Source of the DNA: an uncultured Bacteroidia bacterium | GTDB lineage: Bacteria > Bacteroidota > Bacteroidia > Bacteroidales > F082 | DNA: 47,032 nucleotides | Assembly: GCA_902774365.1 (NCBI GenBank) | Contig: CACYHX010000033.1 | Span: forward strand, 1 to 47,032 | Reading direction: 5' to 3' | In this document: positions 9,610-17,747 of the stretch, in pieces | Numbering within the stretch: position 1 is the first letter of the stretch | Layout of the letters: every line of letters starts with the position of its first letter | Position numbers and translations under genes: made by a program | The notes under the pieces: generated by a model | Database searches by the model: none | What the model was told of the DNA's origin: nothing | Seen by the model: the letters and a program-made list of their open reading frames with translations, nothing else

Positions 9610-10692
9610 TTATTCCACAACAAATTTCACTGTTTCACGGAAGTTTTCTCCCTTAACCTGCAAGAAATAAATCCCCTTTTCCCATCCGGCAACGGAAATG
9701 GTTCCGCTTGAGGAACCTGAAGATACTTCTTGTCCCATCAAATTGAAAATGGAATACGCTACCTTTTCGCAAGGAAGGTTTTTCATAAAGAGAACATCGG
9801 AAACAGGATTGGGATAAACCTCAAGCGGTTGTTGGGCGGTGGATTCGTGAACGGCCAAAGGCCCCATGGAGGGGATAATGTTCAAGATAATGCCTTCCAC
9901 CTTGGTCATGCCGTAATAGAAATTCGGGTCGGGGATGTCGTACCAGTTGTCCAGAGTGCCACCGTAGCCGAAATTGATATGGAATTTGCCATCCGACTCG
10001 CGATAGCCATCGACCACGACATTGTGTCCTACCGTTCCAGCAGGATTTTCAACAGCCAAATGGGCAGGATAACCGGCTTGCAGATTGGAAATCAAGGTGG
10101 CATACATGGTGGAATCGGGCTCGCGAAACAGCACGCAATCCGTGAAGCCGAAGCGCTGGTAGGCATCAAAGGCTTGGTCCACATAGAAGGTGCCTGAGCC
10201 TTCCGAGGTATAGACCTGCGTGCAGGCCGTGCCACAAGCAAAGACCAAGGCGGCGGCAAGCTCGTCAGGCAGTACCTCGCCGCGCTGGAAAGTGGCGTCG
10301 ATGGAATCCAACATTTCGTTCAATTGCGGGAAGGACGGAAATTTCAAGCTCGCCCAATCGTCGTCGATGACATAATTGCGCCCCGCGTAGGAATGGTTAT
10401 AGTCGTCATCATCGGTAAAGCGGGTGTCTTCTGTTGTTCGCAAATAGTTAATGATTTGTCCCATGGCAACGGCAGGGCAGCCTGCAACGCTGTAGGCATT
10501 GCCATTCACTGGGTCTCTGGGACAAAGCTGGTTGTAGGGATAATCTTGTGTCCAGTGTGAACCAAGAAAGCCATCCGCGCGAAGCGTCGGAGTGGTCGCG
10601 TGTGGTTTTTCAACGGTTTTCAGAAGAGGAGTTTGCGCCCAGCTGTTTAAAGCGCAAAGCGCAATTAGTAATAAGGAAAGAACTTTTGACAT
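9610..10692 (-). CDS. secreted C10 (streptopain-like) cysteine protease with T9SS sorting domain
   Basis: A 360-residue exported protein. ATG 10692 gives a normal signal peptide (MSKVLSLLLIALCALNSWAQ); an in-frame TTG six codons upstream is a less likely start. The catalytic cysteine lies in VAGCPAVAMGQIINYL (about C72) and the histidine in GHNVVVDGY (about H223), the peptidase family C10 pattern. Residues from about 285 (VYPNPVSDVLF, then GIYFLQV) are a type A type IX secretion domain, so the protein should be secreted or held on the cell surface. The mature part begins almost directly at the catalytic domain: I see no room for the long inhibitory propeptide of SpeB. The transcript has a leader of about 150 bases containing a 66-bp hairpin. 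Confidence 0.85.
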   Translation of the reverse strand: MSKVLSLLLIALCALNSWAQTPLLKTVEKPHATTPTLRADGFLGSHWTQDYPYNQLCPRDPVNGNAYSVAGCPAVAMGQIINYLRTTEDTRFTDDDDYNHSYAGRNYVIDDDWASLKFPSFPQLNEMLDSIDATFQRGEVLPDELAAALVFACGTACTQVYTSEGSGTFYVDQAFDAYQRFGFTDCVLFREPDSTMYATLISNLQAGYPAHLAVENPAGTVGHNVVVDGYRESDGKFHINFGYGGTLDNWYDIPDPNFYYGMTKVEGIILNIIPSMGPLAVHESTAQQPLEVYPNPVSDVLFMKNLPCEKVAYSIFNLMGQEVSSGSSSGTISVAGWEKGIYFLQVKGENFRETVKFVVE

Positions 10693-10724
10693 ATTATGAC
10701 TTTTTTTCAATTTCTATTAGTTCG

Positions 10725-10853: not shown

Positions 10854-10890
10854 CAACTTTTTCATTATCAATGGTGATTTGATTTATAAT

Positions 10891-10948
10891 GTCCACGTAA
10901 TTGTCCACATTGGGTTTTCTTATCGGAACGGATAATGCGCTATTTTTG
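10891..10948 (+). promoter_or_regulatory. promoter with composite operator for the flavodoxin-like operon
   Basis: In order: GTCCA (10891-10895), seven bases, GTCCA (10903-10907), fifteen bases, TCGGAACGGATAA (10923-10935), then -7 box TATTTTTG (10941-10948). GGTTTT near 10913-10918 may act as the -33 element. The same elements at the same distances occur at 16410-16467. The first gene starts at 10973. Confidence 0.8.
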
Positions 10949-10972
10949 CGGTCGATTTGATAGAAGCAAACA

Positions 10973-12148
10973 ATGAATTTGGTATTGAACACATTAGGAG
11001 CAAGCATTGACAAAGAAACGATTATCGCTCTGCTTCCTGACAAAGAGGTTGAAATCATCGACACCGCCGACATGAACATTGCGCATTGTATGGGCTGCAA
11101 CCAGTGCTGGCTCAAAACACCTGGCATTTGCGCCATCAAGGACGATTATGAGAACATCCTCAAGAAACTGGTAAAGGCCGACAACCTCTGGCTTGTCTCC
11201 GACACACGATTCGGCTTTCTGGATTACAAAGGCAAAAGAATGATGGATCGCATTATGCCTATGCTGAACATGACCATCGGTTTCCGCGACGGCTGGATGC
11301 GCCATGAGTTGCGCTACCACGCGCTCAACATCGGGCTTTTGTATAAAGGAGCCGCTGACCAAGCGCTGTTGGAAGATTGGTGCAAACGCACCGCTGCCAA
11401 CATTGGTGGACATTCGTTGGGTGCCATTCCTTTGGATGCTACTTCCAGCATAGTTCAAAACTCCAAACACTCAACTCTAAACTCCAAACCAACTCATATC
11501 GTTATCATCAACGGCAGCCCAAGAGTGCAGAAATACAGTAATACCGACAAAATCATCCACACCTTCGCCAAAGGCTTGGAAGAGGCTGGCATCACTTGGG
11601 AACTTCACAACCTCTCCAGCCGTAAAGAATGGAGCGCAGCACGCGAAGCCTTTCTCAACAACGAACGCATTCTCATGGCGTTTCCGCTTTATGTGGAATG
11701 TGTGCCTGGCTTGATGCTAGAGTTTTTGGAAACGCTACTTTCTGAGCCCAAACAGCCAAAAGAAATCTCCTTTTTGCTGCACGGAGGTATGGATGAAGGG
11801 AATGAGTTCCGCCTGTGTGAACGCTTCCTGCGAGGACTACCCGAACAACTTGGTTGCAGTTACGGCGGCACACTCATCCATGGCGGTAGCTTCCGTATCC
11901 GTACCGCACCAGCCGATCAAGTGACCAAAATGGTGACTCCTTACATTGAAATGGGTCTCCTGTTTGCACAAAAAGGCAATTTCCTCTCACCCGAAGCTGC
12001 CAAGTTCATCGGCATGGAACAATATCCATGGTTGGTTCGCAAAATGGTAAGCCTGCTGTTTTTGAAGAAAGTCAACGGGGAGTTTGAACAGTTCGCTAAG
12101 GATTGGGGCTGCACTCGCCCGCTTGGTGATAAGCCGTATATTGAATAA
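10973..12148 (+). CDS. double flavodoxin-like NAD(P)H-dependent oxidoreductase
   Basis: A 391-residue cytoplasmic protein with two tandem flavodoxin-like halves. The first has the Cys cluster CMGCNQCWLKTPGICAIKDD (C39, C42, C45, C53), typical of iron-sulfur flavoprotein or NADPH-dependent FMN reductase relatives. The second starts at about residue 176 with IINGSPRVQKYSNTDKII, a classic FMN-binding loop. The N-terminus (MNLVLNTLGASIDKE) is short and lacks the GSPR loop, so the first half may not bind FMN normally. It is the first gene of a four-gene operon with gaps of 10-18 bases. The promoter carries an operator shared with the gene at 16496. Substrate unknown. Confidence 0.75.
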   Translation: MNLVLNTLGASIDKETIIALLPDKEVEIIDTADMNIAHCMGCNQCWLKTPGICAIKDDYENILKKLVKADNLWLVSDTRFGFLDYKGKRMMDRIMPMLNMTIGFRDGWMRHELRYHALNIGLLYKGAADQALLEDWCKRTAANIGGHSLGAIPLDATSSIVQNSKHSTLNSKPTHIVIINGSPRVQKYSNTDKIIHTFAKGLEEAGITWELHNLSSRKEWSAAREAFLNNERILMAFPLYVECVPGLMLEFLETLLSEPKQPKEISFLLHGGMDEGNEFRLCERFLRGLPEQLGCSYGGTLIHGGSFRIRTAPADQVTKMVTPYIEMGLLFAQKGNFLSPEAAKFIGMEQYPWLVRKMVSLLFLKKVNGEFEQFAKDWGCTRPLGDKPYIE

Positions 12149-12166
12149 GAAGAAAAATGTATTGAT

Positions 12167-12598
12167 ATGGAATTATCAAATTGGTTTAATGGGTTCGAGA
12201 AAGGCATTGCACAGCTTTCACCAGAACAACGGTCAGTTTTCTTCGCGGAATGTGGAAAGAACTGTGTGAAAGGCGGTACGCTTTCAGTTTACCAAAAACT
12301 CTATGAGGACGCTAAAGGTGATATGGATGTTTTCTTTGAGATGGCCAATAATTTGCCTGGAGTAAAAGGTGAGGTCGTCGAAAAAGGTCGTGTCTATCGG
12401 CTGGTCTTTTTGGAATGCACTTGTGAATTGTGCAAAAAAGGATATGTCACAACACCTTTGCTCTGTGAATGTTCGCGCCAAAGCGTGATGTATTCGATGC
12501 AAAGTTTGTGGAAAGGCAAAAATTTCACCGTAACGCTTTGTCACTCCATCTTGGGTGGGGGAGCGGATTGCGAAATGAGAATAGAGGTAGAAAAATGA
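12167..12598 (+). CDS. Cys-rich protein of unknown function
   Basis: A 143-residue soluble protein with an N-terminal helical half, an early C29-x3-C33 pair and a central cluster CTCELCKKGYVTTPLLCECS, then a late Cys near GGGADCEMRIEVEK. The spacing, and the ending in a beta strand after a Gly-rich turn, loosely recall V4R/hydrocarbon-binding or thiazoline-hydrolase-like folds; this is only a shape resemblance. The cysteines suggest metal or redox chemistry, which fits the flavoprotein encoded 18 bases upstream. I do not recognise the family with certainty. Confidence 0.5.
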   Translation: MELSNWFNGFEKGIAQLSPEQRSVFFAECGKNCVKGGTLSVYQKLYEDAKGDMDVFFEMANNLPGVKGEVVEKGRVYRLVFLECTCELCKKGYVTTPLLCECSRQSVMYSMQSLWKGKNFTVTLCHSILGGGADCEMRIEVEK

Positions 12599-12608
12599 AC
12601 ACGAAAAT

Positions 12609-13019
12609 ATGAAAACATTTGAAAAAATCCTAACCCTGTTCATCGGCATCGGAGCAATCGCTGGCGCGGTGATGATGTGGATTGACCCAACTGGCGCAAC
12701 ATGGGGTGGTGAGCCACTGTTGGAAATGTTGCGGGCAAAGATGCCTTGGCCAGAAGTGTTCTTCAGGAACTTCATCCCATCGGGCTTTGTGCTGTTGGGC
12801 TTGAACGGCATCACCCAATTTGTGGCAACTTACCTGCTGTTCAAAAAGCACCGTTTGGCACAGAAAGCCGTACTTGTTTGTGGCATCATCTTGATGCTTT
12901 GGATCGTCCTCGAATGGTGGGTGTGGGGCTTCAACGCCATGAGCAATATCTTTTTCATGCTCGGTTTGGTTGAAGTGGCAATGGCCATTAAAAGCATTGG
13001 AAATCAAAATGAAAAATAA
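12609..13019 (+). CDS. small inner-membrane protein with four predicted helices
   Basis: A 136-residue integral membrane protein. Hydrophobic segments lie at about 6-26, 55-78, 86-105 and 110-127. A conserved-looking WIDPTGATWGGEPLLEML segment follows the first helix and EWWVWGFN lies between the third and fourth. The topology resembles DoxX-like or other small four-helix proteins, but no family signature is certain. It lies 10 bases after the Cys-rich gene and 12 bases before the outer-membrane gene, so it belongs to the same operon. Confidence 0.6.
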   Translation: MKTFEKILTLFIGIGAIAGAVMMWIDPTGATWGGEPLLEMLRAKMPWPEVFFRNFIPSGFVLLGLNGITQFVATYLLFKKHRLAQKAVLVCGIILMLWIVLEWWVWGFNAMSNIFFMLGLVEVAMAIKSIGNQNEK

Positions 13020-13031
13020 AGGATTATTCTC

Positions 13032-15380
13032 ATGAAAATACTAAAATTCATAACTCTGACTACTGCACTGCTGATTACAGTTTCAGCATTGGCTCAAAAC
13101 CAAAACTTAGTTGGCCACATCACCGATGAAAACGGCGAACCTATGCCCTTCGTGAATGTGGTGCTGCTTTCGCTTCCCGACTCGACCTTCGTGCAAGGAA
13201 CGGTGACCGATGAGCAAGGTTCATTCCTCTTGCCGACCGACAAAAAAGACGGCCTGCTGAAAGTGTCGTGCGTCGGCTATCAAACCCAATATGCAAAGCC
13301 CACAAACGGCTTGACTATTCAGATGATGATGGATGCTCAACTCCTCGGCGAAGTGGTTGTGAAGAGTCAGTTGCCACAAACGCGGCTGACAGGTAACTCG
13401 ATGATTACCACCATCCAAGGCTCGGTGCTTGAGGATTCGGGGACGGCACAAGAGATGCTGACTAAAGTGCCTGGCATGACGGGCAGCGAGGATGGTTTGG
13501 AGGTCTTGGGCAAGGGCTCACCTATTATCTATATTAACGGGCGGCTGATGCGCGATGACAGCGAGTTGCGCCGCATGCGCAGCGACGACATCCGCGATGT
13601 GGAAGTCATCAACAACCCAGGAGCGCAATATGATGCCACGGTGAGGGCAGTGGTCCGCATCCGCACCAAGAAACAACAAGGTGACGGCCTCAGCCTCGAC
13701 CTGAACTTGACTGACGACCAAGACTTGCAGTACGGTTTCAACACGCCACGCGGAAAACTCGGCTTGAACTACCGTAAAAACGGTGTCGATGTATTCGGAT
13801 CGGTGTATTACAGACATACGGACTACCGCCAATACAGCAGCTTGGAGGAAATCGCAAACACCACCAAAGTGTTCCGTCAGGCAGGTCCCTACACCATGAC
13901 ATGGAAAAACGACCAACTCGTTTATACCGCAGGCGCCAACTGGCAAGTCTCCGACAATCATTCCTTGGGCATCCGCGCCGACTTGACGCATTATCTCGGC
14001 GGCGAGAACAAGGTCATCTATGATGAGGATGTCTTCGAAAACGACGTCTTCCTCGACCATCTCTACAGCGTGCAAACCAGCAAGGAAACCAAGCCGCTCG
14101 GTATCCTCACCAATGCCTATTACAACGGCACAGCGGGCAAACTCGGCATCGATTTCAACTTCGACTTCATGAACACGGCGACCAACACCGACCGCGAAAA
14201 CGTGGAGCAAAGCCAGATAGAAGATGACTTTGTCAGAAGCAGGTCGGGAGCGGAAAGTAGGCTCTATGCCTCCAAGTTGGTGCTTTCCTATCCCGTTTGG
14301 AAAGGCAGCATCGAGGTCGGCACGGAGATGACCTTCGCCAAGCGTCACAACACCTATTGGATTGACAAACAAACCATTGCCAATACCGATGCCGACATCA
14401 CGGAAAACAATATCGCTGCCTTTGCGCAATACGCCTGCGACTTCGGAAAATGGGGTCAAGCCAGCGTGGGAATGCGTTACGAACACACACTTTTGGACTA
14501 TTGGGATGTGACCAACGACGATTTTTTGTATCGCCCGCAGGATGAGTTCTTCCCGACGGCCTCCTATTCCGTCGCCTTGGGCAAAGTGGAGATGGGTCTG
14601 TCGTATGGCATCAAGACCAATCGCCCGAGTTTCTTCGCGATGAACGATGCCGTCACCTACATCAGCCGTTATTCGATGCAGGCGGGCAACTCGCAATTGC
14701 TCAACGAACGCATTCAAGACCTCACGCTGAATGTGGGCTACAAATGGCTGGCATTCACGGCTTCATATTCGCATTGCAAGAACCCCATCACGCAGTGGGC
14801 CTATCTCACCGATGGCGATGCCGCACTCATCAAACACATCAACCTCGACAAGCCTGTCAACACCGTCGGGGCCTATATTTCCGCGACGCCGAGAGCGGGC
14901 ATTTGGTCGCTCAACGCCACCGCTGGCATGGAGAAACAAGACCTTTGGCTCGACCTTGAGGACATTCATGTTCCCGAAGGTACTCGCAGGGTCTATTTCG
15001 ACAAGCCAGTCTTTACCTTTAACGCCTTCAACACCTTCAGTTTCAAGCATGATTGGAAAATTGACATCAACTTCATGTTCCGCTCGCGCGGCCATCAGCT
15101 GAATTTCTACAACGATTATAACTACTTGAACCTTGGCGTTGTCGTGCAGAAGAGCTTCCTGAAAGACAAATCGCTCACCATCCGTGCCGCCGTGCTCGAC
15201 ATCTTGCGACACAGTGGCATGAACGAATACAGCGACATGGGTTACTACCAAATCCAGCAAAACAACGTCTTCTCGACGCACAAGCTCCAAGTCTCGGTGT
15301 ATTATCGCCTGAACTCGACTCGCAGCAAATACAAAGGCACTGGTGCTGGTAAAGATACCCAGGAAAGAATGAAATCATAG
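13032..15380 (+). CDS. outer-membrane beta-barrel protein with carboxypeptidase-regulatory-like N-domain
   Basis: A 782-residue outer-membrane protein. Signal peptide at 1-21 (ends ALAQ). Residues about 25-105 form a CarboxypepD_reg-like domain (GHITDENGEPMPFVNVVLLS). Residues about 120-215 are plug-like (MLTKVPGM, then SPIIYINGRLM and DVEVINNPGAQYDA). The remainder is a large beta-barrel of the OMP_b-brl_3 type. These proteins resemble TonB-dependent receptors, but many lack a proven TonB box and their cargo is unknown. It is the last gene of the operon begun at 10973, and its 3' end faces the regulator gene, 16 bases away. Confidence 0.8.
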   Translation: MKILKFITLTTALLITVSALAQNQNLVGHITDENGEPMPFVNVVLLSLPDSTFVQGTVTDEQGSFLLPTDKKDGLLKVSCVGYQTQYAKPTNGLTIQMMMDAQLLGEVVVKSQLPQTRLTGNSMITTIQGSVLEDSGTAQEMLTKVPGMTGSEDGLEVLGKGSPIIYINGRLMRDDSELRRMRSDDIRDVEVINNPGAQYDATVRAVVRIRTKKQQGDGLSLDLNLTDDQDLQYGFNTPRGKLGLNYRKNGVDVFGSVYYRHTDYRQYSSLEEIANTTKVFRQAGPYTMTWKNDQLVYTAGANWQVSDNHSLGIRADLTHYLGGENKVIYDEDVFENDVFLDHLYSVQTSKETKPLGILTNAYYNGTAGKLGIDFNFDFMNTATNTDRENVEQSQIEDDFVRSRSGAESRLYASKLVLSYPVWKGSIEVGTEMTFAKRHNTYWIDKQTIANTDADITENNIAAFAQYACDFGKWGQASVGMRYEHTLLDYWDVTNDDFLYRPQDEFFPTASYSVALGKVEMGLSYGIKTNRPSFFAMNDAVTYISRYSMQAGNSQLLNERIQDLTLNVGYKWLAFTASYSHCKNPITQWAYLTDGDAALIKHINLDKPVNTVGAYISATPRAGIWSLNATAGMEKQDLWLDLEDIHVPEGTRRVYFDKPVFTFNAFNTFSFKHDWKIDINFMFRSRGHQLNFYNDYNYLNLGVVVQKSFLKDKSLTIRAAVLDILRHSGMNEYSDMGYYQIQQNNVFSTHKLQVSVYYRLNSTRSKYKGTGAGKDTQERMKS

Positions 15381-15396
15381 GTTGGAGGATGGTTCA

Positions 15397-16320
15397 TCAC
15401 ATCCCCAATTTGGCCTTAAGCCTTTGTCTGGCTTTCGTGACCGATGCAGGCGAGATGCCCAAAAGAAGGGCTTGCTCGGTTACGGAAAACTGAAGTCGGG
15501 AAAGCATGATCAGGCGGACATCGCCACGGGTGAGGTTGGGATGCTTCTCCCGAAGCGATTCAGGCGTGAGGGAGAAGCCGTTTCGGAACACACGTTCCAT
15601 TTCAACCCATTCATTGTCCTGAATATAGCGGGGCGCGGCGTGAAGCTCTTGCAGCAAGTGATTCTGGCCAGCCAGTGAATGGATCAAGAGATAGGATTCA
15701 ACATCGCCCTCGGGTCCAGCGCCTTCTTGAGGCATAAACGATTCACGCTTATCGTTGCCAGCGCGAATGACCATCAAAAACGCCCGCACGTTTTTGCCGA
15801 AAATCTCTGACAATTGAGGAATGCTGAGTGCCGCACCGCCTTCCACGCAGGTATGGGCCAACCCGATACCGACAAGCATCAGTTGGTAATAAAGCATTTC
15901 GGCTTCTTTCCCATGTAAGCCGAAAGACTGGCCGATGGCGGCAATCGACTCCAGCTTGAAGCCCACTTGGGTGTCGATGTAATCCTCGAAAGAGGTAGCC
16001 GAAGCCTTGTCGTCCATCACCAATTTGAAAAGTTGAGGCTCGTCGATGGCGAACCACAGGAAGGCCAAGCCCATGCCTTTGAAAGGCGGATTCAAGGAAA
16101 AGCCTGCGCCGACTCGCTCCTTGAACAAACGGCGGGCCTCGGTGCGGACGGCCTCCATAATACCTTCCATGGAGCCAAATTTTGAGAAAACGGTATTGAC
16201 ACCGCAACCCAAGGTCGAGGAAAGGCTTCGGGCAGTAAGTGAGGAATGGCCGCCTTTTCTCACGATGTCAATAGCAGTAGCGAGTATCTTTTCTTTCGTT
16301 ATGCTTGTCGGTCTTGCCAT
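15397..16320 (-). CDS. TetR-type regulator with an additional C-terminal HTH domain
   Basis: A 307-residue DNA-binding protein, about 100 residues longer than ordinary TetR regulators. Residues 1-55 are a TetR HTH (TARSLSSTLGCGVNTVFSKF). Residues about 70-175 resemble TetR ligand-binding domains of the WHG/TetR_C_33 kind. Residues about 250-307 (REKHPNLTRGDVRLIMLSRL, then ALLLGISPASVTKARQRL) match the C-terminal HTH of Bacteroidota LuxR/SusR-like regulators. It is divergent from the zinc-ribbon gene and convergent with the beta-barrel gene. A CGGAACAGAT site in its leader suggests autoregulation. Confidence 0.78.
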   Translation of the reverse strand: MARPTSITKEKILATAIDIVRKGGHSSLTARSLSSTLGCGVNTVFSKFGSMEGIMEAVRTEARRLFKERVGAGFSLNPPFKGMGLAFLWFAIDEPQLFKLVMDDKASATSFEDYIDTQVGFKLESIAAIGQSFGLHGKEAEMLYYQLMLVGIGLAHTCVEGGAALSIPQLSEIFGKNVRAFLMVIRAGNDKRESFMPQEGAGPEGDVESYLLIHSLAGQNHLLQELHAAPRYIQDNEWVEMERVFRNGFSLTPESLREKHPNLTRGDVRLIMLSRLQFSVTEQALLLGISPASVTKARQRLKAKLGM

Positions 16321-16328
16321 AATAAAAC

Positions 16329-16338
16329 ATCTGTTCCG
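16329..16338 (-). promoter_or_regulatory. operator-like site in the regulator's own leader
   Basis: On the minus strand this reads CGGAACAGAT, differing at one base from CGGAACGGAT in both composite operators (10924-10933 and 16443-16452). It lies between the predicted start site and ATG 16320, a position suited to autorepression. Confidence 0.5.
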
Positions 16339-16351
16339 TTATTATCTGCTG

Positions 16352-16381
16352 CAAAAGTAGGGAAATCCCGTGCAAATCAAA
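16352..16381 (-). promoter_or_regulatory. promoter of the TetR-type regulator gene
   Basis: The minus strand reads TTTG (16381-16378), 18 bases, TACTTTTG (16359-16352), one base short of the consensus spacing. The predicted start site is near 16345, just upstream of the CGGAACAGAT site. Confidence 0.65.
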
Positions 16382-16409
16382 TACATTTTAGTAACAAAAA
16401 TGTCGCAAA

Positions 16410-16467
16410 GTCCATAAAAATGTCCATGTGTGGTTTTAGTTTCGGAACGGATAAACCTGTAATTTTG
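16410..16467 (+). promoter_or_regulatory. promoter with composite operator for the zinc-ribbon gene
   Basis: GTCCA (16410-16414), seven bases, GTCCA (16422-16426), fifteen bases, TCGGAACGGATAA (16442-16454), five bases, then -7 box TAATTTTG (16460-16467). Every element and every distance agrees with 10891-10948. The gene starts at 16496. Confidence 0.8.
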
Positions 16468-16495: not shown

Positions 16496-17221
16496 ATGGA
16501 ACAAAAGTTTTGTCAGAGCTGCGGAATGCCGCTCACCCAAGAGATTCTCGGTACCAATGCCGATGGAAGCAAGAATGAAGACTACTGCCTGTATTGCTAT
16601 AAGAATGGTAAGTTCTTGCAAGACTGCACGATGGACGAGATGATTGAGCATTGTGCCCAGTTTGTGGACGAGGTAAACAAAGGGCTGCCGCAGCCCATCA
16701 CGAAGGAAGAATACATCGGCCAGATGAAGATGTATTTCCCACATCTGAAACGCTGGCGCAAGGAATTGTCGATAGATGAAGACACTCCTGAAAACCCAGC
16801 CTTAATGGGTGTTAAAGACCTCATCGCCAAGATGGCCGACACGCTGCCCATCACCATGATATCGTCGGTCGATGAGGAGGGCTTCCCATGCACCAAGGCC
16901 ATGCTGTCGCCTCGGGTCCGTGAAGGCATCAAGGTGTTCTATTTCACCACCAATACCTTCTCGCTGCGTGTGGCTCACTACAAGGCCAACCCCAAGGCCA
17001 GCATCTATTTTTGTGATGCCGAAGGCTTCAAGGGCATGATGCTACGTGGCACGATGGAGGTGTTGACCGACGCCAAGAGCAAGGAGATGATTTGGCGCGA
17101 GGGGGACACGGAATATTACCCAGGTGGCGTCACCGACCCCAACTATTGCGTGCTGAAATTCACCGCAACGGATGGCCGTTTTTATAGCGATTTCTATCCG
17201 AGGAGTTTTGTAATAGAGTAA
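16496..17221 (+). CDS. zinc-ribbon and pyridoxamine 5'-phosphate oxidase-like protein
   Basis: A 241-residue protein in two parts. Residues 1-80 form the putative zinc ribbon seen with DUF-type oxidoreductases (CQSCGMPL with C6 and C9, GTNADGSKNEDYC with C31 and C34, then NGKF). Residues about 105-241 form a split-barrel flavin-binding domain of the pyridoxamine 5'-phosphate oxidase-like family (TLPITMISSVDEEGFPCTKAM, then FYFTTNT). It may reduce or bind a flavin or related cofactor; the substrate is unknown. The promoter has the composite operator shared with the flavodoxin-like operon, so the two are likely induced together. The GNAT gene follows by 7 bases. Confidence 0.8.
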   Translation: MEQKFCQSCGMPLTQEILGTNADGSKNEDYCLYCYKNGKFLQDCTMDEMIEHCAQFVDEVNKGLPQPITKEEYIGQMKMYFPHLKRWRKELSIDEDTPENPALMGVKDLIAKMADTLPITMISSVDEEGFPCTKAMLSPRVREGIKVFYFTTNTFSLRVAHYKANPKASIYFCDAEGFKGMMLRGTMEVLTDAKSKEMIWREGDTEYYPGGVTDPNYCVLKFTATDGRFYSDFYPRSFVIE

Positions 17222-17228
17222 AGTATCA

Positions 17229-17747
17229 ATGGAAACCGAAAGAATCCTACTCCGTCCCTGGCGCGACGATGACGCCGAGGCCCTTTTCAAATATGCCTCC
17301 GACCCCGATGTGGGTCTTCGCGCAGGCTGGCCACCACACAAGAGCGTGGAGGAGAGCCTGGAGATCATCCATACCGTATTTCATAACGATACCAACTGGG
17401 CCATCGAATTGAAAGAAACGGGCGAGGCCATCGGCGCGATAGGCTATCTGCCTGCACCCAAGAGCGAGCTTCCCGCACGCGAAGGCGAGCCGTTGGTGGG
17501 CTATTGGGTCGGCAAACCCTATTGGAACCAAGGTATCTGCACCGAAGCGCTCGAGTTGATGCTCGACCATATCCGCAAGACCACCGACATCAAGTCGCTG
17601 ATCAGCAGCCATTATTACGACAACCCCGCTTCAGGAAAAGTGATGGAGAAATGTGGCTTTGTGCCCACCGGTGAGACCTGCATCGACGAGCAACTGACGG
17701 GCACGACGAAGCCGACCCGGGTGATGCGGCTGGAACTTAACGCATGA
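17229..17747 (+). CDS. GNAT family N-acetyltransferase (RimJ/RimL type)
   Basis: A 172-residue acetyltransferase. The N-terminal ETERILLRPWRDDDAEALFKYA and the acetyl-CoA region (VGYWVGKPYWNQGICTEAL, then NPASGKVMEKCGFVPTG) fit the RimJ/RimL group that acetylates protein N-termini or small molecules. It lies 7 bases downstream of the zinc-ribbon gene, so it should share that gene's regulation. Its 3' end overlaps the convergent DUF2851 gene by 11 bases. Confidence 0.85.
   Translation: METERILLRPWRDDDAEALFKYASDPDVGLRAGWPPHKSVEESLEIIHTVFHNDTNWAIELKETGEAIGAIGYLPAPKSELPAREGEPLVGYWVGKPYWNQGICTEALELMLDHIRKTTDIKSLISSHYYDNPASGKVMEKCGFVPTGETCIDEQLTGTTKPTRVMRLELNA

Follow-up and report, generated by a model that had tools for sequence, protein, structure and literature searches.

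A TetR-type regulator with a second helix–turn–helix domain and a composite promoter site that accompanies it in Bacteroidales

Contig CACYHX010000033.1 (assembly GCA_902774365.1; 47,032 nucleotides, hereafter the window) comes from an uncultured Bacteroidia bacterium of the F082 lineage of Bacteroidales. Two of its promoters carry the same composite site, and a gene for a 307-aa regulator lies between them. According to structure models, the regulator is a TetR-family protein followed by a disordered linker and a LuxR/GerE-like helix–turn–helix (HTH) domain. We propose, with a probability of about 0.6, that this regulator controls a small regulon, for the most part local, through the composite as its operator-promoter. 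The TetR HTH would read the CGGAAC box, and the second HTH would read the TGTCCA boxes.

The two promoters, at 10891–10948 and 16410–16467 (both + strand), had been noticed in a sequence-only reading of the window for their identical spacing. Each had 0 mismatches to GTCCA-N7-GTCCA-N16-CGGAACGGAT-N7-TAnnTTTG. None of 100 dinucleotide-shuffled versions of the window contained a match, even with 3 mismatches allowed. Random scatter of the site over the whole genome, which would have counted against that reading, was not observed. The source genome (82.6% complete, so that further sites could be missing) contained just two composites at up to 3 mismatches, both at this locus. The TGTCCA repeat alone, with 2 mismatches, gave 25 matches in this genome and 8 in the reversed control; the matches were mostly chance-like and in coding sequence.

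Homologous loci indicated the unit TGTCCA-N6-TGTCCA, 15 or 16 bp, CGGAAC, 11 bp, and TAnnTTTG. The repeat unit first described as GTCCA is more exactly TGTCCA, with AGTCCA in its place at 16409. The 10-mer CGGAACGGAT, first taken as the core, is present at both promoters, but the widely conserved core is CGGAAC only; the GGATAA after it varies among relatives. GGTTTT between the elements is also common to both window promoters. A TAnnTTTG consensus for the −7 element is given in PMC12632263 and PMC9723704, the latter placing it at −12 to −5 for flavobacteria. With this placement, the repeat lies at about −63 to −45 and CGGAAC at about −29 to −24. The elements are as follows (OMP, outer-membrane protein).

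10890–10895, + strand: TGTCCA box D1, flavodoxin/OMP operon promoter, about −63 to −58 if TAnnTTTG is at −12 to −5
10902–10907, + strand: TGTCCA box D2, flavodoxin/OMP operon promoter, 12 bp from D1
10924–10929, + strand: CGGAAC box, core promoter of the flavodoxin/OMP operon, about −29 to −24
10941–10948, + strand: −7 element TATTTTTG (TAnnTTTG), flavodoxin/OMP operon
16409–16414, + strand: box D1 (AGTCCA), zinc-ribbon/PNPOx promoter
16421–16426, + strand: TGTCCA box D2, zinc-ribbon/PNPOx promoter
16443–16448, + strand: CGGAAC box, core promoter of the zinc-ribbon/PNPOx gene
16460–16467, + strand: −7 element TAATTTTG, zinc-ribbon/PNPOx promoter
15397–16320, − strand: regulator, 307 aa (TetR fold about 1–187, disordered linker 188–219, second HTH domain about 220–306)
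16326–16338, − strand: CGGAACAGATGTT in the regulator leader, a CGGAAC box joined to an AACAnnTGTT palindrome, CGGAAC at about +10
16352–16359, − strand: the regulator's own −7 element TACTTTTG

Eighty named loci with regulators of 52–94% identity were kept for comparison. They came from Bacteroidales (one from Prevotellaceae), many of them from ruminants. Upstream regions were readable in 77; those of L166 and L176 were short and that of L180 was masked, and these three loci were left out. The composite, with at most 3 of its 23 letters mismatched, was found in 75 of the 77 regions, 61 of them at 0 mismatches. Shuffled upstream regions had 7–11 mismatches. The two regions without a match were those of L109 and L182; L109 contains tandem copies of a TTTTACGGACGAAATGTCGCA-type repeat between the regulator and the site, where the regulator-side composite was expected. 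Strict composites were present upstream of 55 of the 78 loci with at least 250 nt of upstream sequence, with a gap of 15 bp in 41 and of 16 bp in 14. The distance from CGGAAC to TAnnTTTG was 11 bp in 55/55 strict composites, though 9–13 bp were allowed.

Thirty-five genomes were hand-picked from the 80 loci for a search of the separate parts. All exact TGTCCA repeats (35/35) sat inside a composite, and all exact TTTCGGAAC-N11-TAnnTTTGC promoters (37/37) carried the repeat. Among 40 distinct sites with the 15-bp gap, CGGAAC reached 2.00 bits at each position, whereas the 40 bp upstream averaged 0.57; the search pattern required the D1/D2 letters and did not fix CGGAAC letter by letter.

Further boxes were observed in relatives. 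A TGTCC box was located upstream of the repeat in 51 of 85 sites, at 21–22 bp (11 sites) or 32–33 bp (40 sites), and the two spacing states are 11 bp apart. A tree of all 80 regulators places at least two origins of the shorter spacing (L155, L158) within the clade that has the longer one. This repeated shift fits a constraint to one helix face. An inverted TGGACA was found downstream of TAnnTTTG in 52 of 85 sites, 49 of them at exactly 14 nt. Both window promoters lack these extra boxes. The upstream box was 21–22 bp before the regulator's own TAnnTTTG in 50/78 loci, which is the expected place of a −33 element. G262 has a second composite before a zinc-ribbon/PNPOx gene on another contig, and the 6.5 kb retrieved there contain no regulator; this placement fits action in trans. 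An extra composite with an altered −7 element occurs at L241:1983–2000, about 370 bp from a transposase-like open reading frame (551–1615), and the zinc-ribbon match of that locus is truncated. Covariation of HTH residues with the boxes was useless, since the boxes and both recognition helices were nearly invariant across 54 aligned homologues.

The window's genus was represented by 99 genomes, in which a match above 300 bits was counted as a full-length regulator (G024 was included though its regulator is in two pieces). The composite, at up to 3 mismatches, was present in 38 genomes and the regulator in 32. Composites occurred in 31 of the 32 genomes with the regulator versus 7 of the 67 without it, and reversed-pattern controls gave 0 matches. 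In the sole regulator genome without a composite, G082, the repeat is spaced 11 bp instead of 12 bp. Three of the seven composite genomes without a regulator (G016, G018, and G051) have the locus at a contig end. Together with the 75/77 homologue loci, these counts confirmed that the composite adjoins orthologous regulators. In a family scan of 173 genomes, the composite was again found in 38, all in one of 16 genera; it was absent from the other 15 genera searched. In the genus of G269, a pattern with the 15-bp gap only detected composites in 3/4 genomes with the full-length regulator vs 0/36 without. An order-wide sample of 393 genomes from 206 genera, thin per genus, gave two matches only, both in the window's genus.

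Shorter relatives of the regulator lack the second HTH. The family of G269 (299 sampled genomes) contained 12 full-length and 16 shorter relatives, and the window's genus added four shorter ones. Twenty single-HTH loci were fetched, and 18 had readable upstream regions; L254, with just 24 nt of upstream sequence, and L265, in which no start was located, were left out. The 18 rows are related to one another and not independent. The TGTCCA repeat was found in 0/18, anywhere in the fetched locus. AACAnnTGTT was found within 90 nt upstream in 14/18, versus 0.06 expected by mononucleotide shuffle. Because the relatives without the second HTH are also without the repeat, we assigned TGTCCA to the second HTH. 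The idea that the two HTHs read the two halves of the site was in this way supported indirectly; from these sequences we infer which domain reads which box.

The prediction of two separate HTH domains was confirmed by AlphaFold 2 models and by Pfam searches of homologues. The model of the regulator (mean pLDDT 81.8) consists of a TetR-like body, a disordered linker, and a separate helical domain. Foldseek placed TetR proteins on top, the best being 1zk8 (E 8e-4, target TM 0.75). TetR_N was detected in 52/54 homologues at E ≤1 (best 2.9e-6) and TetR_C_33 in 38/54 at the same cut-off; the window regulator itself scored 17.7 bits for TetR_N, under the Pfam cut-off of 24. Modeled alone, the second domain had a pLDDT of 95.5. 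EvgA, DosR (3c57), RcsB, EsrB, and the Bacteroides LuxR-type 3clo were among the top fold matches of residues 219–307, and the match to 3c57 had a target TM of 0.81 and 1.4 Å over 46 columns. The Pfam search of homologues gave no GerE match in this domain; HTH_23, Xre-like-HTH, and Sigma70_r4_2 were found instead. We therefore call it GerE-like in fold only. Neither the Pfam search nor the fold search listed it as TetR, indicating that the regulator does not have two tandem TetR domains. Both HTHs are conserved among homologues, and the recognition helix of the second one is almost invariant.

A third near-copy of the core had been reported in the regulator's own leader. It was confirmed as CGGAACAGAT at 16329–16338 (− strand). 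The 10-mer CGGAACGGAT alone is weak evidence in the window, with 10 matches at up to 1 mismatch versus 6.5 expected. The leader copy is credible because its place is fixed in homologues. CGGAAC starts 21 nt past the start of the regulator's TAnnTTTG in the window, and the same distance was found in 69/78 loci, while the distance to the ATG varies from 30 to 39. The window leader reads CGGAACAgaTGTT, which unites the CGGAAC box and the AACAnnTGTT palindrome. The leader of L182, a 52% homologue, reads CGGAACAtaTGTT and likewise unites both motifs. Because both leaders join them, the CGGAAC box looks like half of a TetR-type palindrome, and the TGTCCA boxes are therefore left to the second domain. 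CGGAACA was located within the palindrome in the window leader and, among homologues with identities of 72% or more, in 14 of 34; among more distant ones this was so in only 1 of 44.

In the mechanism that we favor, the TetR HTH would bind CGGAAC both near −29 in the target core promoters and near +10 in the transcript of the regulator itself. The 12-bp direct repeat of TGTCCA, which spans about −63 to −45 and precedes the −33 region, would be bound by the second HTH. This is the usual place of class I/II activators. Activation, repression, and a ligand are our guesses from the position of the boxes. The regulator might repress its targets and itself via CGGAAC; a small molecule reaching the TetR domain might then leave the protein held on the TGTCCA boxes, where it would activate the targets. 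As for its origin, a repressor-type family may have acquired a differently folded second DNA-binding domain while its promoters acquired matching boxes in helical register, giving a repressing and an activating arm. We put this forward tentatively, as somewhat less likely than not.

Several observations weigh against the proposed regulon. Composites free of mismatches persist in G003, G048, G061, and G066, four genomes that yielded no regulator orthologue and look like losses. G048, rated 100% complete, keeps two perfect composites. Unless the regulator was lost recently, perfect sites in its absence argue against an obligate activator. In L182, whose regulator is the most distant homologue (52%), the second recognition helix and individual TGTCCA boxes are retained, and there is no composite. 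The adjacent composite in L109 is disrupted by the other repeats. The CGGAAC promoter of L243, whose repeat is lost, and the L241 repeat with its altered −7 element also fit poorly. CGGAAC or its complement was found within 260 nt upstream of 3/18 single-HTH relatives. These relatives are only 25–32% identical (ten measured), and the association of box and domain is therefore confounded with phylogeny. The CGGAAC of the targets is a single half-site, which is unusual for a TetR dimer. The GerE likeness of the second domain is a fold match with weak E-values (best 0.28, none ≤0.001). As a separate observation on G048, its locus L087 (G048:C12:15000–34000) shows an apparent deletion of the OMP gene past residue 230 together with the regulator; both composite promoters are perfect.

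The sites that persist in four genomes and the second HTH of L182 would also be expected if two proteins shared the promoter, the regulator acting on CGGAAC via its TetR HTH only and an unlinked factor owning the TGTCCA repeat, with the second HTH serving another purpose. Such a factor would serve this regulon only, given that every exact repeat in the 35 genomes sat in a composite. The lack of the repeat beside 18/18 relatives without the second HTH and the distribution in the genus of G269 also speak against it, and we regard two proteins as rather unlikely. The single half-site at the targets, where a TetR dimer would be expected to have palindromes, would suit a reversed assignment, in which the second HTH reads CGGAAC, or one extended site without a one-to-one mapping of domains. 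This is improbable in our view, because CGGAACA is part of the AACAnnTGTT palindrome in the window leader and in 14 of the 34 closer homologues, and the same palindrome lies upstream of most single-HTH TetR relatives.

We give very little credit to the two other explanations. The composite could be a promoter module copied between neighboring genes without any regulator-specific meaning; target-side sites are alike within a locus, and the clusters are rearranged between genomes. Mere copying does not agree with the 2.00 bits per position of CGGAAC, or with the regulator-side CGGAAC and the boxes labeled U and L, which keep fixed positions of their own. GGAAC is also a −35 motif of extracytoplasmic function (ECF) sigma factors, and CGGAAC resembles it, so the composite might be an alternative-sigma promoter. 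Against this, a housekeeping −7 element, TAnnTTTG, was found 11 bp downstream in every strict composite, and CGGAAC also occurs downstream of the regulator's own −7 element. Hence, an ECF promoter is highly implausible.

The regulon proposed for the 307-aa regulator would contain the following genes in the window.

10973–12148, + strand: putative target, 391-aa FMN_red/Flavodoxin_2 protein (PF03358, 4.9e-08)
12167–12598, + strand: putative target, 143 aa, no Pfam match
12609–13019, + strand: putative target, 136 aa, no Pfam match above the cut-off
13032–15380, + strand: putative target, 782-aa CarboxypepD_reg and OMP_b-brl_3 outer-membrane protein (PF14905, 2.8e-50)
16496–17221, + strand: putative target, 241-aa Zn_ribbon_2 and PNPOx_N protein
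17229–17747, + strand: putative target, 172-aa GNAT acetyltransferase

The gaps inside the gene run 10973–15380 are 18, 10, and 12 bp, and the zinc ribbon–PNPOx and GNAT stretch covers 16496–17747. The two target sets described for the window are present as putative targets, but the target genes differ between genomes, and relatives carry the further boxes. In homologue loci, the composites were followed by OMP, flavodoxin, and zinc-ribbon/PNPOx genes and by others, including those for CAT-fold and GNAT acetyltransferases and GyrI-like, isochorismatase-like, and DUF2807 proteins. This predicted mix suggests that the regulon deals with a small molecule that is foreign or redox-active. The gene at 9610–10710 (− strand), which diverges from the flavodoxin operon, encodes a C10-family peptidase bearing a secretion-sorting tail; several relatives likewise have a C10-family peptidase next to the locus.

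TetR regulators, LuxR-type domains, and bipartite operators are already known. The window regulator resembles the TetR family in its TetR_N/TetR_C_33 domains, its fold match 1zk8, its divergent orientation, and the site in its own leader. The differences are the extra C-terminal HTH and the single CGGAAC, not a palindrome, at the targets. Residues 219–307 resemble NarL/FixJ/LuxR-type domains (DosR, EvgA) in fold, and the short boxes in both orientations recall the NarL heptamers. Unlike those proteins, the regulator has no receiver or quorum-sensing domain, its E-values are weak, and there is no Pfam GerE match. PMC11667970 describes Mce3R of Mycobacterium tuberculosis as a TetR-family protein with two non-identical HTHs per chain, a non-palindromic operator, and autoregulation. 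The likeness is the two different HTHs in one TetR-family chain and, as predicted here, a non-palindromic operator and autoregulation. A difference is that both HTHs of Mce3R are described there as TetR-type and inside one 25-bp motif, whereas the second HTH of the window regulator is of another fold on a flexible linker, with the box types about two helical turns apart. In the open-access literature, most subscription papers being outside it, we found no TetR protein described that combines a second, differently folded HTH with an operator of two corresponding parts, and the earlier statement that no such regulon had been described was not contradicted. For rumen-associated Bacteroidales, in which we found no regulator of such a layout described in that literature, the system would supply a two-domain regulator together with its site.

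Few clean natural cases bear on the old question of how transcription factors and the sites they bind change in concert. Here, a domain and a DNA element are present or absent together across related loci, and the fixed spacings give testable predictions. If the proposal is true, the single-HTH relatives on the same kinds of genes keep a simpler layout, and the coupled change of regulator and operator could be traced in living lineages. The single-HTH loci L252, L255, and L258 adjoin the same kinds of targets, with the OMP 39–42% identical. The zinc-ribbon/PNPOx gene in L255 (5939–6661) and L258 (5943–6665) is 91–92% identical to that of the window, and the adjoining OMP is only 39% identical, which suggests separate gene transfer between lineages. 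Two other loci of the 18 encode TetR-type regulators of 372 aa each fused to a GNAT domain (L256:2586–3704 and L257:2967–4085). The GNAT parts are 51–52% identical to the GNAT of the window, indicating that C-terminal partners of more than one kind have joined this TetR family.

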